Of a DNA stretch of 25,000 bases, positions 13,891-20,229 are shown one piece after another. Source of the DNA: a virus. Where the stretch lies: positions 1-25,000 of IMG/VR virus record IMGVR_UViG_3300025889_000888, one strand, 5' to 3'. Each line of letters starts with the position of its first letter. Position 1 is the stretch's first letter. Below the pieces are notes generated by a model. The model was given only the letters and a program-made list of their open reading frames with translations. It did no database searches and had not been told where the DNA came from. The translations under genes were made by a program, and so were the position numbers.

Positions 13891-15561
13891 TTAAAAAGGT
13901 ATATGTTCAACGGTTTGTTTTATTGTTTGATTTTGGTTTATCGGAAAATAAGCGCCCCCCCTATTAAAGTCAGGTGCTATTGTAAAAACGCCTTGTTGAC
14001 CGTTTTCTTTGCGTTTCACCTTTTGAACGTGTACTTCTACCGCGTCGGATTTAAAGGTCGTTTTTTCGTTTAGTTTTCTATATACTGTCAAACAGTTGTA
14101 CGCCTTATTGAAGAAGTCCGAAGACCCGGAAATCGAATAAGGATCGGGGACTTTATAAATGCCGTTTTCCATTTCCATTTTTCTTGGGTGCGCTATTAAA
14201 AACAAATGCGTTCCGGTTTGTTGTACGAATTGCGTGATTTCAGAAAGTAAAGCGCCGACATAGGTGTAGTCACGTTGCGCCGAATGATCCAACATATTCC
14301 AAGGGTCAATACACAAAATATTTACGCCTTTTTGAAATACCAATTCCCGGAATTTTTGCAAAATGTTTTTTAGCGTTAGATTTTCCAAGTCAATCTTTAC
14401 AAAATAAAAATGGTCTTCAATAAACGATTTCGAAGCATTTAATTTATCCGCGTCACAATTGGATTCGTTTAATTTGTTTGCGATTCGTTTTATATGGCCT
14501 TCGTAGGGGAATGATTCCGGTGCAAAATACGCCGTTCTAAAGTTATATTTTAGCGCCAAATTGCAAGCGACTTGATCGAACACGTCGGATTTACCGGCGT
14601 TTGGTATTCCGGTGACAACTGACCATTCGCCCATTGAAATGTTAATGTAATCGTCACCATTGCCAAGACCAATGGAATAATTTTTGACGCCCTTTTCGTT
14701 GAACAAAATAACATTGTCCCAAATGTCGTTGATATTGATAACACCTTCAAGTGGGAACGATTTGGCGTTTTTAAGCAATTTTCGAAGCACTTCGGGGCCT
14801 TTTTGTACTAATGCTTCATTTGCGTCTTTATAGCCGTTAAAATCGACGTAGGTGCAACGATATTTTCCAAGGCGTCTTGCAAGTTCATTCCGAAGGGCCA
14901 AACCGGCATCGTCGTTGTCGGTGCAAAGTATTATTTTCTTTTTTTCTTTAAAGTATTCGAAGCAATTGTCAAGATATTCAAGACGTTGGTTTCCTTTTGA
15001 TGCGCCGTTAGGAACCGACACCACCGAATAAACCCCGGCTTCGTGTAAAGACAAAGCGTCCATTTCGCCTTCGACAATGTAGGCAATATCGGAATCTTTG
15101 ATATTATCAACGCCGTAAAATATTAATTCGGCCCCCCCTACCATTTTAAAATTCTTTTCGCCGTCACGATATTTGACGTTTATTAGTTTTCCGTCGCGAT
15201 AGTAGTTAAAATTTATGGCTTTTCGTCGTTTATCGACTTGCGGAAAATATTCGATTGATTCGCCAATTTTCCAGTTAGCCAAAGTCGCCTTTGATATTTT
15301 ACGTTTTTCAAAATATGAAATTGTACGATCGGATAGTTCAACTTTTATTTCGGGCGGCTTTACAAATTCTTTTTTTTCCGATAGGTTAACGTTTCCCGAC
15401 CAATTACAATGGTGGCAATTGTAAAGACCTTTTTCAAGATTTATAGAAAGTGATTTGTCACGTTTATTTTTACGCTGGTGACTACATTTTGGACAAGAAA
15501 GTTTTTGTTCAATAGCGTTGCCTTTTGGTATAATACCGACGGCGTGAAAATTTTCAATCAT
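13891..15561 (-). CDS. Primase-helicase (T7 gp4 / Twinkle-like)
   Basis: This 556-residue protein joins primase and replicative helicase. A zinc ribbon comes first (Cys23, Cys26, Cys49, Cys52). A TOPRIM domain has YIVEGEMDAL (161-170) and ILCTDNDDAG (211-220). The RecA-like helicase has Walker A GIPNAGKS (318-325), Walker B ILCIDPWN (415-422) and the later FLIAHPRK segment (454-461) typical of DnaB-type helicases. It unwinds the fork and primes lagging-strand synthesis. The ATG follows ACAATAAACT. It is next to the initiator gene, as in many phages. No DNA polymerase is seen in the window, so the host's may be used. Confidence 0.93.
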   Translation of the reverse strand: MIENFHAVGIIPKGNAIEQKLSCPKCSHQRKNKRDKSLSINLEKGLYNCHHCNWSGNVNLSEKKEFVKPPEIKVELSDRTISYFEKRKISKATLANWKIGESIEYFPQVDKRRKAINFNYYRDGKLINVKYRDGEKNFKMVGGAELIFYGVDNIKDSDIAYIVEGEMDALSLHEAGVYSVVSVPNGASKGNQRLEYLDNCFEYFKEKKKIILCTDNDDAGLALRNELARRLGKYRCTYVDFNGYKDANEALVQKGPEVLRKLLKNAKSFPLEGVININDIWDNVILFNEKGVKNYSIGLGNGDDYINISMGEWSVVTGIPNAGKSDVFDQVACNLALKYNFRTAYFAPESFPYEGHIKRIANKLNESNCDADKLNASKSFIEDHFYFVKIDLENLTLKNILQKFRELVFQKGVNILCIDPWNMLDHSAQRDYTYVGALLSEITQFVQQTGTHLFLIAHPRKMEMENGIYKVPDPYSISGSSDFFNKAYNCLTVYRKLNEKTTFKSDAVEVHVQKVKRKENGQQGVFTIAPDFNRGGAYFPINQNQTIKQTVEHIPF

Positions 15562-15579: not shown

Positions 15580-16353
15580 TTAGTCAAAGTTCACATTTTT
15601 TAGATCATTTCCAAATTTTAAATCAAAAAAATCAATGTATTTTATCCCTTCTTTGTTTCTTCGGCGCAATTTTAATATGGTCAAGAATTGGTTTTTCCAA
15701 AATTCGTCTTTGCGCGCCTTTTGACAAAGCAAAAAAACCTTTCTTGGGTGGTATTTATCCAAACGCCATAAATCGTCGATTAAAGTCACCCATTTACGTT
15801 TTTCGTGGGTTGTTTTTGGTCTTGTTTCCGGTGGAAATAATTCCACAATGGCGAAATAACTTTTTTGAACAAGTGCGTGAAAATCCTTAAAAGATTTTTC
15901 GGTTTTTGGATTTTCAGGAACGGAATTTGGATTTTCAGGAATGTAATTTAATTTATTATTTATATTATTATTATTATATATATTATATATATTATTATCC
16001 GGGACATTTTTGTCCCCACCTATGGACAATTTTGTCCCTACCCCCCGGACAATTTTGTCCCCACCTACAAGGGTCAATTTTATAAGTCTTTGTTCAACTT
16101 CTTTGGTGTCTTTTTTATAGGTGTATTTGATTTCGATAAATCCAAGGGTTTCAAGTTGTTTTATCCAACGTGATATTGATTTATTTGACACGGCGTATAA
16201 TTTGGCAAAATAAGCGTTGGACGCAAAACAATATCCCTTTTCGTTAGTTAGTGCGGTTATTTCCGCAAACAATAATTTTGCGTTTGGCGTAAGTTCTAAA
16301 TGATAACGAACATTTGCCGGAAGAATTGCGTAATAGTTTTTTTGTTGTTTCAT
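15580..16353 (-). CDS. Replication initiator-like protein with winged helix-turn-helix
   Basis: This 257-residue protein has an N-terminal winged helix: LTPNAKLLFAEITALTNEKG (about 21-40), a recognition region YAVSNKSISRWIKQLETLG (about 53-71) and a wing FIEIKYTY. This is the HTH_36 / replisome-organiser type. A low-complexity linker (about 112-150, Asn- and Ile-rich, with PENP repeats) separates it from a helical C-terminus (about 155-257) that may contact the helicase. The linker is encoded by DNA that looks like a replication origin, as in lambda O. Its ATG overlaps the methyltransferase stop (ATGA) and the primase-helicase gene follows. Confidence 0.8.
   Translation of the reverse strand: MKQQKNYYAILPANVRYHLELTPNAKLLFAEITALTNEKGYCFASNAYFAKLYAVSNKSISRWIKQLETLGFIEIKYTYKKDTKEVEQRLIKLTLVGGDKIVRGVGTKLSIGGDKNVPDNNIYNIYNNNNINNKLNYIPENPNSVPENPKTEKSFKDFHALVQKSYFAIVELFPPETRPKTTHEKRKWVTLIDDLWRLDKYHPRKVFLLCQKARKDEFWKNQFLTILKLRRRNKEGIKYIDFFDLKFGNDLKNVNFD
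15905..15941. repeat. 21-bp-spaced direct repeat beside the A/T tract
   Basis: TTTGGATTTTCAGGAA occurs at 15905-15920 and again at 15926-15941, identical over 16 bp. It flanks the A/T-only tract on the side opposite the palindromic iterons and codes PENP twice. It may be part of the origin. Confidence 0.75.
15944..15998. other. Candidate DNA unwinding element, 55 bp of A/T only
   Basis: An unbroken run of 55 A/T bases lies inside the initiator gene between two sets of direct repeats. Such tracts next to iterons are the site of strand opening in phage and plasmid origins. The protein code here is only a run of Asn, Ile and Tyr, so coding constraint is weak. Origin function is inferred. Confidence 0.6.
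16001..16085. repeat. Palindromic iterons, candidate origin (initiator binding sites)
   Basis: GGACAATTTTGTCC, a near-perfect palindrome, is present at 16024-16037 and 16047-16060, with a variant GGACATTTTTGTCC at 16002-16015. A decayed half-copy (GGTCAATTTT) begins at 16072. Spacings are 22, 23 and 25 bases, about two helical turns, so proteins would bind on one face. Each full copy is followed by CCCCACC or CCCTACC. Location within the initiator gene next to an A/T-only tract fits a lambda-type origin. Confidence 0.75.
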
Positions 16354-16997
16354 TTTTTTACAGACGATAATATTTCAAAACACAATTCTTCGGGGATTTT
16401 ACTACGTTCATAGTTTCCTTTTAAGCCTTGGGTTCCGGTTTTACTTCCGCGTGGCGCTTCTTCGTGATGACATTTTAAGTTGCCATTAAAACATTTTTTT
16501 CGCGGTTTCCAACCGTATTCATTAAATAAATTTTGCAAGTTGTTTGTCCAAATATCCGTAGGTTTTGCACGGTGGTCGTTATACTGACAATACCAAACCG
16601 TCGCACGATCTAAACCGCGAACAACGTCTAATTTTCGCAATTTTCCGCGCGGATTTTCAATAAAATAAACAAGTTCGCCGTTTAATTTTAAAAAGTGTTT
16701 TATTATATTAATAGTTGCTTCAACGTATTTAACGCCAGTCATTGCGTTTTTTGATTTTGGCGTGTGATCTTTGTTCCAATGGGTTCCAATTGATGCAACA
16801 GAAAAATAAGTACAAGGTGGCGACGCCCAAATTATATCCGGAATAAAAGGCACATTTGAAACGTCAAAATTTAAAATATCAACAACGTAGTTAATGCCTT
16901 CAAAATTATTTACATCACTACTAAAAACATTGTAATTTAATTTTTCAGCAACCTTTCCAATTGACCTACTTCCGGCAAATAATTCCAAAACGTTCAT
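16350..16997 (-). CDS. C5-type DNA cytosine methyltransferase-like protein
   Basis: This 215-residue protein has the SAM-binding motif VLELFAGSRSIG (3-14), the second acidic motif FSSDVN (25-30), the catalytic PPC motif ASPPCTYFS (58-66, Cys62) and ENPRGKLR (114-121) where most C5 enzymes have ENV. It would methylate cytosine in phage DNA, perhaps to escape host restriction; no partner restriction gene is present. It is short for the family, so the target-recognition part is small. The stop overlaps the initiator start. It may act without sequence specificity or on another base position; the enzyme class is more certain than the product. Confidence 0.82.
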   Translation of the reverse strand: MNVLELFAGSRSIGKVAEKLNYNVFSSDVNNFEGINYVVDILNFDVSNVPFIPDIIWASPPCTYFSVASIGTHWNKDHTPKSKNAMTGVKYVEATINIIKHFLKLNGELVYFIENPRGKLRKLDVVRGLDRATVWYCQYNDHRAKPTDIWTNNLQNLFNEYGWKPRKKCFNGNLKCHHEEAPRGSKTGTQGLKGNYERSKIPEELCFEILSSVKK

Positions 16998-17399: not shown

Positions 17400-17763
17400 T
17401 TTTTAAGTGTTGGTCTATGATTTTTTTTGCATCGTCAAAGTTGTTGACCCAATATGCCCCCCAATTCGCATTTTCAAGCGTTTTAAGACACTTTTGTTGG
17501 TTCGGTGTAGGTTTATTATACCCGACCTTTAATTCAAGCGCTAAACCGGCCTTAAAATCGTTTTTATGGAAAATAAGAATATCAGGCACACCGGACACCC
17601 CTCCAAGGTATTTAAACTTATAACGTTCAAACGGCGTTCTTCGCCCTTCGTTTGGGACGTGAATCGCAAATACATCCGGGTATTGTGTTTGGATATAAGT
17701 CATTACGGCGTTTTGAAGTCTATCTTCTTTTGTTAAGTATTTGTCGAAGGGGTTTTTGTGCAT
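17383..17763 (-). CDS. VRR-NUC domain nuclease
   Basis: This 126-residue protein is almost entirely a VRR-NUC fold of the PD-(D/E)XK group. HVPNEGRR (35-42), GGVSGVPDILIF (54-65, Asp61) and LALELKVGYNKPTPNQ (74-89, Glu77 and Lys79) give the family's active-site set. The family includes FAN1-type and phage structure-specific nucleases, proposed to cut branched DNA such as Holliday junctions. It lies in the replication/recombination module and probably resolves intermediates. Its start lies inside the 3' end of the DnaA-like gene (44-base overlap). Confidence 0.9.
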   Translation of the reverse strand: MHKNPFDKYLTKEDRLQNAVMTYIQTQYPDVFAIHVPNEGRRTPFERYKFKYLGGVSGVPDILIFHKNDFKAGLALELKVGYNKPTPNQQKCLKTLENANWGAYWVNNFDDAKKIIDQHLKNETNN

Positions 17764-18115
17764 ATCGTAAAAGATAAGGGTGTATTTTTTTAGGTTGGTT
17801 TATTATTGTTTTTTTATAGGGGTTGTCTTTTAATTCTTTGACTAATTTATCGATATTTTCAAACTTGATGCGAAATTTTTCGTCGTATTGGCATAAAGTT
17901 ATTGTTTGTGATGCGCCGTAAAGTATCGAAGAATGATCGCGTCCAACTAATTGACCGATTTCATTAAACGACGCCCTTGTATACTTTCTACATAGCGCCG
18001 AATAAATAAAACGCGCTTCTGCAATAGGTCGCAACCGTGTATTTTGACTTACTGAAAAACCAAAATAGGTTTCAACAATAATTTTAATTTGGTAAGGTTC
18101 AATTGTGTTTTTCAT
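17720..18115 (-). CDS. Stand-alone DnaA domain-IV-like DNA-binding protein
   Basis: The frame opens at 18226, but the ATG at 18113-18115 follows the usual A-rich leader and clears the upstream gene, giving 131 residues (MKNTIEPYQIKIIVETYFGF...). AEARFIYSALCRKYT (about 31-45), then FNEIGQLVGRDHSSILYGAS (about 49-68), matches the DnaA C-terminal helix-turn-helix and its GRDHSTV signature. There is no AAA+ ATPase, so it binds DNA but cannot act as full DnaA. It might bind phage or host DnaA boxes, to load replication proteins or to block host initiation. A basic tail ends the protein. Confidence 0.85.
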   Translation of the reverse strand: MKNTIEPYQIKIIVETYFGFSVSQNTRLRPIAEARFIYSALCRKYTRASFNEIGQLVGRDHSSILYGASQTITLCQYDEKFRIKFENIDKLVKELKDNPYKKTIINQPKKIHPYLLRYAQKPLRQILNKRR

Positions 18116-18134
18116 TTTATATTTTGTTTTGTTT

Positions 18135-18455
18135 TTAGAAGTTGTTTTTGTAGTTAGCACGTTCGACTTGCAACTTGTAAAATTCAAACGCACGAAAACC
18201 GGTAATATGCGAATCCGTAGGTACAAAATATTTCCAACCCTTTGACACCCCCCTATTTATGTAATAAAACAAAAAGGCGGCCAATTTACCCGTATCTTTT
18301 CTAAATATTACCGTGGCCGTGTGGTCACTTGTTGGAATTATTTCGCTAATAAAAAATTCTTCATTGTTAAAATTACCTTCACGATCCTTTTTTGAATACA
18401 TAGAACAAACCTTTTTAGCGTAGTTGTCTAATTCAATGGCGACATTTTTATTCAT
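18135..18455 (-). CDS. Hypothetical protein (106 aa)
   Basis: The product (MNKNVAIELDNYAKKVCSMY...) has a helical start, a central strand region with HTATVIFRKDTGKLAAFLFYYI (about 45-66) and a mixed end rich in aromatic residues. It lies between the exonuclease gene and the DnaA-like gene, each with a short A-rich leader, in the early module. It has the size of a conserved phage protein but I do not recognise the family. Confidence 0.72.
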   Translation of the reverse strand: MNKNVAIELDNYAKKVCSMYSKKDREGNFNNEEFFISEIIPTSDHTATVIFRKDTGKLAAFLFYYINRGVSKGWKYFVPTDSHITGFRAFEFYKLQVERANYKNNF

Positions 18456-19487: not shown

Positions 19488-19516
19488 ATAAAAGGGGGAC
19501 AATAATGCCCCCCGGT
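19488..19516 (-). terminator. Terminator after the ParB-like gene
   Basis: Minus-strand GGGGG (19513-19509) pairs with CCCCC (19498-19494) around a CATTATTG loop stem, followed by TTTTATATTT. It lies 6 bases beyond the ParB-like stop and before the coiled-coil gene. Confidence 0.75.
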
Positions 19517-19521
19517 GGTTG

Positions 19522-20229
19522 TTAAATTCTATTCTTTTTTGAAATACCATAGTTGTAAACTTCTAAAATCCCTTCGCGGGTATCTTTTTCATTTAGATAC
19601 GCCCGAAGTTTCTTTTTATTTGCGTTGTGTATCAACCTTTTAATATCAAAGTTGTGCGCTATATATAAACCTTTTATTACGCGTACAAAACGGGCGTCAA
19701 ACGCGCTATCAAACTCTTTTGACAACGTCAACATATCGGACAATATTTTATTGCCCAAATTATAATTGAATTTATATTTTCCGTTTTTTACGTCTTTTTG
19801 GGCGGTTTGTGTAGTGGTAAAACAATTTACAATTGTCGATAATGACGCCTTGTTAATCCATATATCTATTTGATCTGACAAGTCTTTATAGTCCTGCAAA
19901 CCTTCAGTTTTCCAATAATGAATATAATCGGATATTTTCCAACCATATCGAACACTATTCATTGTGATAATATGTTCTTTTTTTAGGTTGTTGTTTATAA
20001 TGTAAGGGACATCAATATTTAGATTCTTACAAACGGCGAATCTATGTTGTCCTTCCATTACTTCAAAATTTTTAGTAACTACAATCGGAATTAATAAACC
20101 GTCTTTTTTTACCGACTGAATCATTTTTTTGATTTTACCACGATTAAGGTCGCGGTTTGATTTTACTATTCGAAATTTTTTGTAATCTTTTGTAGTTCCG
20201 AATTTGAATTGATTTGTTAGTGTAAACAT
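19522..20229 (-). CDS. ParB/Srx-fold domain protein
   Basis: This 235-residue protein has the ParB-like nuclease fold in its first 85 residues: a strand (FRIVKSNRDLN), helix GKIKKMIQSVKKDGLLIPIVV (31-51) and the motif VMEGQHRFAVCKNL (57-70), where GQHR is the conserved centre. The rest (about 90-235) is helical, Lys- and Asn-rich and not recognised. Phages use such proteins as regulators, DNA-binding factors or modifiers rather than for partitioning. It is bounded by a terminator downstream and a hairpin upstream, so it may form a separate unit. It lacks the classical HTH seen after this domain in true ParB. Confidence 0.82.
   Translation of the reverse strand: MFTLTNQFKFGTTKDYKKFRIVKSNRDLNRGKIKKMIQSVKKDGLLIPIVVTKNFEVMEGQHRFAVCKNLNIDVPYIINNNLKKEHIITMNSVRYGWKISDYIHYWKTEGLQDYKDLSDQIDIWINKASLSTIVNCFTTTQTAQKDVKNGKYKFNYNLGNKILSDMLTLSKEFDSAFDARFVRVIKGLYIAHNFDIKRLIHNANKKKLRAYLNEKDTREGILEVYNYGISKKNRI

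Follow-up and report, generated by a model that had tools for sequence, protein, structure and literature searches.

Within the gene for its replication initiator, the phage sequence analysed here (the window, a stretch of 25 kb) carries three palindromic iterons followed by an A/T-only tract. We consider positions 15944-16061, extending to about 16084 with a degenerate further site, very probably to be the phage's theta-replication origin, lying inside its own initiator gene. The original prediction had placed an origin within this gene, and it is supported by in-gene iterons beyond null expectations, an A/T tract that follows them, and co-variation between the iterons and the recognition helix of the encoded protein.

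The initiator and its genomic neighbourhood

The replication initiator gene (15580..16353, minus strand) encodes a 257-aa protein and was assigned from PF13730, PHROG matches and an AlphaFold model. The domain order is an N-terminal HTH_36 winged helix, a disordered linker and a C-terminal helical domain. We found PF13730 (HTH_36) at the N-terminus with E=2.6e-15 (56.4 bits against a gathering cut-off of 25), in agreement with the winged-helix initiator gene first proposed. PHROG matches (phrog_19658 at 2.3e-26, phrog_270, phrog_186, phrog_678 and phrog_2514) comprise replication initiators and DnaD-like helicase loaders; the class label used below, HTH_36 phage replication initiator, stands for PF13730 and PHROG 19658/270/428. 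In the AlphaFold model, built with 15 aligned relatives, a confident winged helix occupies about residues 10-93, with wing strands at 73-79 and 86-93. C-terminal helices at residues 160-252 were modelled with moderate to low confidence, and this domain appears DnaD-like and helicase-loader-like on the basis of PHROG matches and the model. Solved structures gave no sequence match to the initiator, and among its best PDB fold matches by Foldseek are the initiator N-terminal structures 4pql, 4pt7 and 5kbj, which would fit the winged-helix fold of the RepA N-terminal domain but match weakly (E 0.01-0.03). The recognition helix, residues 57-69 (NKSISRWIKQLET), is encoded at 16147..16185 (minus strand) and was located from the model and mutual information. 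Linker residues 97-150 are predicted to be disordered (pLDDT about 30), and the segment encoding them (15904..16065, minus strand) contains the putative origin. Comparison of the window with its closest relative, L027 (70% identical), reveals a gap-rich, poorly conserved linker between two conserved flanking domains.

Downstream of the initiator lies a primase-helicase gene with Toprim and RecA-like domains (13891..15561, minus strand; PF13155 at 3e-14, phrog_239 at 1.8e-86), whose product is the initiator's probable partner. Its matches include Cellulophaga, Tenacibaculum and Flavobacterium phages and those of the terminase are Bacteroides-group phages, suggesting a Bacteroidota-type host. 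On the other side, a weakly C5-methylase-like ORF (16350-16997, minus strand), which could not be placed confidently in any family, overlaps the initiator start by 4 nt. The replication module also encodes a protein of 168 aa whose DNA-binding domain resembles DnaA domain IV (17720-18226, minus strand; PF08299, 5.9e-13), although there are no DnaA boxes near the origin. A ParB_N-like protein (19522-20229, minus strand; phrog_12305) is encoded in the early region. Beside its gene, in a short gap between two ORFs, we observed a two-mismatch iteron palindrome at 19497-19510 (GGACAATAATGCCC), which may have a regulatory function or be a second site bound by the protein.

Iterons and A/T tract in the window

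Each iteron is a 16-bp palindrome made of 5-bp arms and a 6-bp A-rich centre (GGGAC-AAAATT-GTCCC). On the minus strand, iteron 1 (CGGACAATTTTGTCCC; coding strand GGGACAAAATTGTCCG) occupies 16046..16061, iteron 2 (TGGACAATTTTGTCCC; coding strand GGGACAAAATTGTCCA) 16023..16038, and iteron 3 (GGGACATTTTTGTCCC; coding strand GGGACAAAAATGTCCC) 16001..16016, with spacings of 22 and 23 bp. At 16069..16084 (minus strand), again at 23 bp spacing, a degenerate fourth iteron keeps only a recognisable right half-site, with GACCC for GTCCC. Thus, from the three to four palindromic iterons announced earlier, three stand (16001-16061, spacing 22/23) and the fourth is reduced to a degenerate half-site. They lie about 290-350 nt into the initiator coding sequence, within codons of the disordered linker, and all repeats as well as the A/T tract fall within ORF 15580-16353 (minus strand), between winged-helix residues 19-93 and the C-terminal helices.

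A search of the 25 kb for GGACAAWWTTGTCC with at most two mismatches returned 4 sites where 0.41 are expected, and 3 of the 4 are in the initiator gene; a count of 4 was reached by none of 100 shuffles. We further scored genes for repeated palindromes at iteron-like spacing, relaxing the G/C requirement (3 per 16-mer) because its strict form misses A/T-rich iterons such as those of phage c5. The window gene scored 38, compared with 12 for the best of its 40 synonymous recodings. A score of at least 28 was found in 0 of 942 codon-shuffled family linkers and 0 of 664 neighbouring or other ORFs. As neither synonymous recoding nor shuffling reproduces the repeats, the peptide does not account for them, and these tests support the earlier view of a linker shaped by the DNA.

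The A/T-only tract (15944..15998, minus strand), our proposed DNA unwinding element, is exactly 55 bp long, as first described; an independent-base estimate (A/T about 0.64) puts the expected number of runs this long at about 2e-7 per 25 kb. Within it, at 15988..15996 (minus strand), AATAATATA, a variant of the conserved element AATAATACA described below, starts 4 nt past the last iteron, which is the family consensus distance. Two 21-bp direct repeats coding for PENP (15900..15941, minus strand; copies 15900-15920 and 15921-15941, about 90% identical) follow. The repeat exists as predicted, but its reading as a conserved origin part does not hold: no copy was found in L027, and it is therefore probably a local duplication and no part of the origin. 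GC skew is monotone, without inflection, and supports the origin neither way. A search of the 25-kb window for a second origin yielded only the two-mismatch palindrome described above.

Iterons and a conserved A/T element across the family

Relatives were gathered by tblastn of phage records, by A1-profile scans of IMG/VR and GTDB genomes and by further IMG/VR scans. This gave 494 sequences with the gene, the IMG/VR set being redundant although clustered, and 314 genes distinct over the first 140 residues, from phages and prophages of Bacillota, Bacteroidota, Spirochaetota, Fusobacteriota and others. In-gene iterons scoring at least 16 were found in 192/314 distinct genes compared with 24/313 after synonymous recoding; at a score of at least 28, the counts were 108/314 and 2/313. 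These prevalences are lower bounds, short A/T-rich half-sites being hard to detect. Family iterons mostly begin near gene nt 270-310, with a spacing of 22, 23 or 24, and L027 possesses degenerate half-sites at the same place with a changed linker peptide.

The 70 nt past the iterons were above the whole-gene A/T level in 97% of genes (p=5e-18), and G+C-rich genes, L173 among them, show the excess too. This region contains the element AATAATACA. A relaxed form of it occurs in 276 of 307 genes of adequate length. In an analysis of 87 genes carrying a relaxed form, the distance from the last iteron to its start was 4 nt in 50, and the form recurs every 12-15 nt, mostly at 12 or 15 nt. The strict form is found at 14.8 per kb in the tract, compared with 0.026 per kb in the remainder of these loci. 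With protein and codon usage kept the same, 20.5 copies would be expected; we counted 109. Codon bias at the element favours AAT over AAC (odds ratio 11) and ACA over ACT (3), and in four genes the element stands in another reading frame (Ile-Ile), two of these retaining the exact 4-nt distance to the last iteron. Judged from these sequence comparisons, AATAATACA is selected at the DNA level.

About a third of the relatives fell under the iteron threshold; among the 118 of those scorable by length, 106 have the A/T element. Neither feature was detected in 12 genes below the threshold, of which L002 is truncated and L126 has palindromes discernible by eye. L147, L161 and L334 may be among the relatives that truly have neither. 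Together with L103, these genes keep the winged helix but show neither iterons nor A/T element in the gene, and their origin may have moved elsewhere.

In position, the phage AATAATACA element resembles DnaA-trios and also the 13-mers beside iterons that plasmid Rep proteins bind single-stranded (PMC8287927, PMC4081077); DnaD binds the strand opposite DnaA-trios (PMC10201434). No DnaA box (TTWTNCACA) was found near the origin. As to repeated trinucleotides with a conserved middle adenine, TAN triplets make up 54% in phase and 7-9% out of phase, in a tract that is coding. Spacings of 13 and 16 nt break the phase and weaken the case for a continuous DnaA-trio register. The A/T-rich region of lambda (L185, 720-900) has ACTATTACA, two mismatches from AATAATACA, which may be chance. 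Searches of an open-access library retrieved no description of the element, which appears undescribed there.

Recognition helix and iterons change together

The original prediction came with a proposed check, whether the repeats change in step with the recognition helix, and the outcome of this check is strongly positive. Half-sites were called blind to arm-base identity, with arms defined by complementarity and the centre by A content, and mutual information between 73 positions of the protein and the 5 of the half-site was calculated for 99 genes whose identity outside the helix was below 80%. Co-variation was strongest (z 17.4) between residue 62 and position 5; next came residue 58, paired with position 3 at z 14.0, and residue 61, paired with position 1 at z 12.4. 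No protein position outside the recognition helix exceeded z 5.3. C5 occurs with R62 in 45 of 50 genes and with other residues in 1 of 49 (p=3e-21). K, R or E58 goes with G3, V58 with A3 and D58 with C3. In phylogenetically independent pair contrasts, R62/C5 was concordant in all 21 switches (0 discordant), K,R,E58/G3 in 20 against 1, V58/A3 in 13 against 1, and S61/T1 in 11 against 0. The coding sequences of helix and iterons are separated by about 100 nt and do not overlap, so the link between the two is not a coding artefact.

Since these residue-base pairings were read from the same data, rules were trained on GTDB loci and tested on other loci. Position 5 was predicted from residue 62 in 52/62 cases, compared with a baseline of 25/62; gains for residue 58 (46/61 versus 37/61) and residue 61 (48/66 versus 40/66) were modest. 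The whole half-site was predicted correctly for 28/99 genes from the most similar helix (proteins of less than 60% identity) and for 5/99 from the phylogenetically nearest gene. In the window, N57, K58, S61 and R62 correspond to the half-site GGGAC, and distant proteins with K58 and R62 have GGGAC, TGGAC, GTGAC and, once, TTGAC. Residue 61 is the window's weak point: S61 usually goes with T1, yet the window has G1, like other K58/R62 genes. The same open-access library searches found no description of this helix-iteron rule, and it appears undescribed in that library.

Discussion

Could these repeats serve something other than replication? Transcriptional autoregulation, with the palindromes as operators for the same protein instead of an origin, is the strongest competitor, and multi-copy palindromes that co-vary with a recognition helix would suit any winged-helix regulator. 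Still, the sites are found some 290-350 nt into the coding sequence, they precede an A/T-rich tract that has a conserved element of its own, and in-gene sites of this kind are origins in lambda O, SPP1 gp38 and pSK41/pPR9 Rep (PMC7466680, PMC6316719, PMC5703833). We therefore regard autoregulation in place of an origin as very improbable; as an extra role of the iterons, it could apply. It is more improbable still that selection acts on the linker peptide and leaves the DNA repeats as a by-product. Asn-rich NNT peptides do recur in most relatives, and a single reading frame accounts for nearly all occurrences of the A/T element. Against this, spacings of 22, 23 and 24 place iteron copies in different frames, synonymous recoding removes the iterons (108 versus 2 genes) and most AATAATACA copies (109 versus 20.5), and the AAT/AAC and ACA/ACT bias is joined by four genes with a frame-shifted AATAATACA. 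Just as improbable is control of translation or stability by RNA hairpins in the initiator mRNA, into which GGGACAAAATTGTCCC could fold and whose stems would also be palindromic, because hairpins would not tie the half-site to recognition-helix residues 58, 61 and 62 and the 22-24 bp spacing is typical of protein-bound iterons.

For the in-gene origin that we favour, the family and the lambda, SPP1 and pSK41 systems suggest how it may work. Winged-helix dimers would bind double-stranded DNA at the three palindromic iterons, with the GGGAC half-sites read by the recognition helix and the A-rich centre giving spacing or bend. The assembled protein complex would then strain and open the adjoining A/T tract, and the AATAATAYA element, 4 nt from the last iteron, may be held single-stranded. 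The C-terminal domain would recruit the phage's own primase-helicase, encoded next door (13891-15561).

The in-gene origin arrangement is already known, and the window adds another probable HTH_36 case. The HTH_36 'replisome organizers' of Lactobacillus phage c5 (ORF38), Staphylococcus phage 77 (ORF016), Cellulophaga phi39:1 (gp41) and Lactococcus BK5-T (ORF49) have winged helices 35-54% identical to that of the window and in-gene iterons at the same place; in BK5-T, a repeat region is annotated inside the initiator gene. Phage phi39:1, the nearest named Bacteroidota phage, has the same core as the window, GACAAAATTGTC, three times at 21-22 bp, and a nearly identical recognition helix (SNRSISRW, compared with SNKSISRW). 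These initiators differ from the window's in that each half-site follows its own recognition helix, in having another C-terminal domain, and in a downstream DnaC or DnaB where the window has a primase-helicase.

Rep of plasmid pSK41 is a RepA_N initiator with its origin in the gene, and pPR9 has an HTH_36 N-terminus and the matching origin in place of the RepA_N ones, an exchange that gave a compatible, autonomous replicon (PMC5703833). Like the window protein, these Reps combine an N-terminal winged helix, origin boxes in the linker region and a separate C-terminal domain, and their linker is dispensable. They belong to staphylococcal plasmids, whereas the window is a phage, and a search of its initiator for RepA_N (PF06970) gave no match at E up to 10. 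SPP1 gp38 binds direct repeats in its own gene (oriL), beside an A/T-rich unwinding element (PMC6316719). Compared by its published description, SPP1 resembles the window in these in-gene repeats and A/T-rich element, but it has a second origin, oriR, where the window offers a single weak extra palindrome (19497-19510).

In lambda O, the central part of the initiator gene holds iterons and then an A/T-rich region (PMC7466680). As in the window, iterons with an A-rich centre precede an A/T-rich region after the DNA-binding domain, and the two initiators have PHROG profiles 678, 345, 391 and 2514 in common; C-terminal similarity is weak (27% over 64 aa, pairwise BLAST E=0.002), and phrog_2514, which matches the C-terminal domain of the window protein, is a DnaD-like profile. 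However, the half-sites are GGGAC around a 6-bp centre in the window and TCCCTC around a 5-bp centre in lambda, and the adjacent P-type helicase loader gene of lambda is replaced in the window by the primase-helicase, without a P-type loader. PF04492 (Phage_rep_O) was not detected in the window protein at E up to 10, compared with 5.7e-36 for lambda O itself, and lambda O was not matched when the family's N-terminal profile was compared with it directly. The likeness to lambda O originally put forward is retained for the in-gene iteron-A/T architecture, while the protein family is HTH_36 without PF04492. The window initiator most likely functions like lambda O, SPP1 gp38 and pSK41-type Rep, and lacking a PF04492 match, it is not filed as lambda O. 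Being HTH_36 and not Phage_rep_O, it has closer models in the HTH_36 replisome organizers and the pSK41/pPR9-type initiators.

On balance, we lean towards a broader proposal: that GATAATAATACA is a sequence-specific melting signal common to HTH_36 initiator genes of several phyla, whatever their iteron sequence; that it would be read by the initiator, DnaA or the helicase machinery, probably as single-stranded DNA; and that helix and iterons co-switch by a simple residue-to-base code, making the gene a self-contained, specificity-switching origin cassette. With reader (the recognition helix) and text (the iterons) in one gene, the family is a natural data set of protein-DNA specificity. The helix-iteron rule predicts, from sequence alone, the replication start and the initiator target in phages of the HTH_36 family, and gives a hint as to replicon compatibility. 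For studying how phage initiators melt DNA, a step that is poorly understood, the conserved A/T element provides a precise target.
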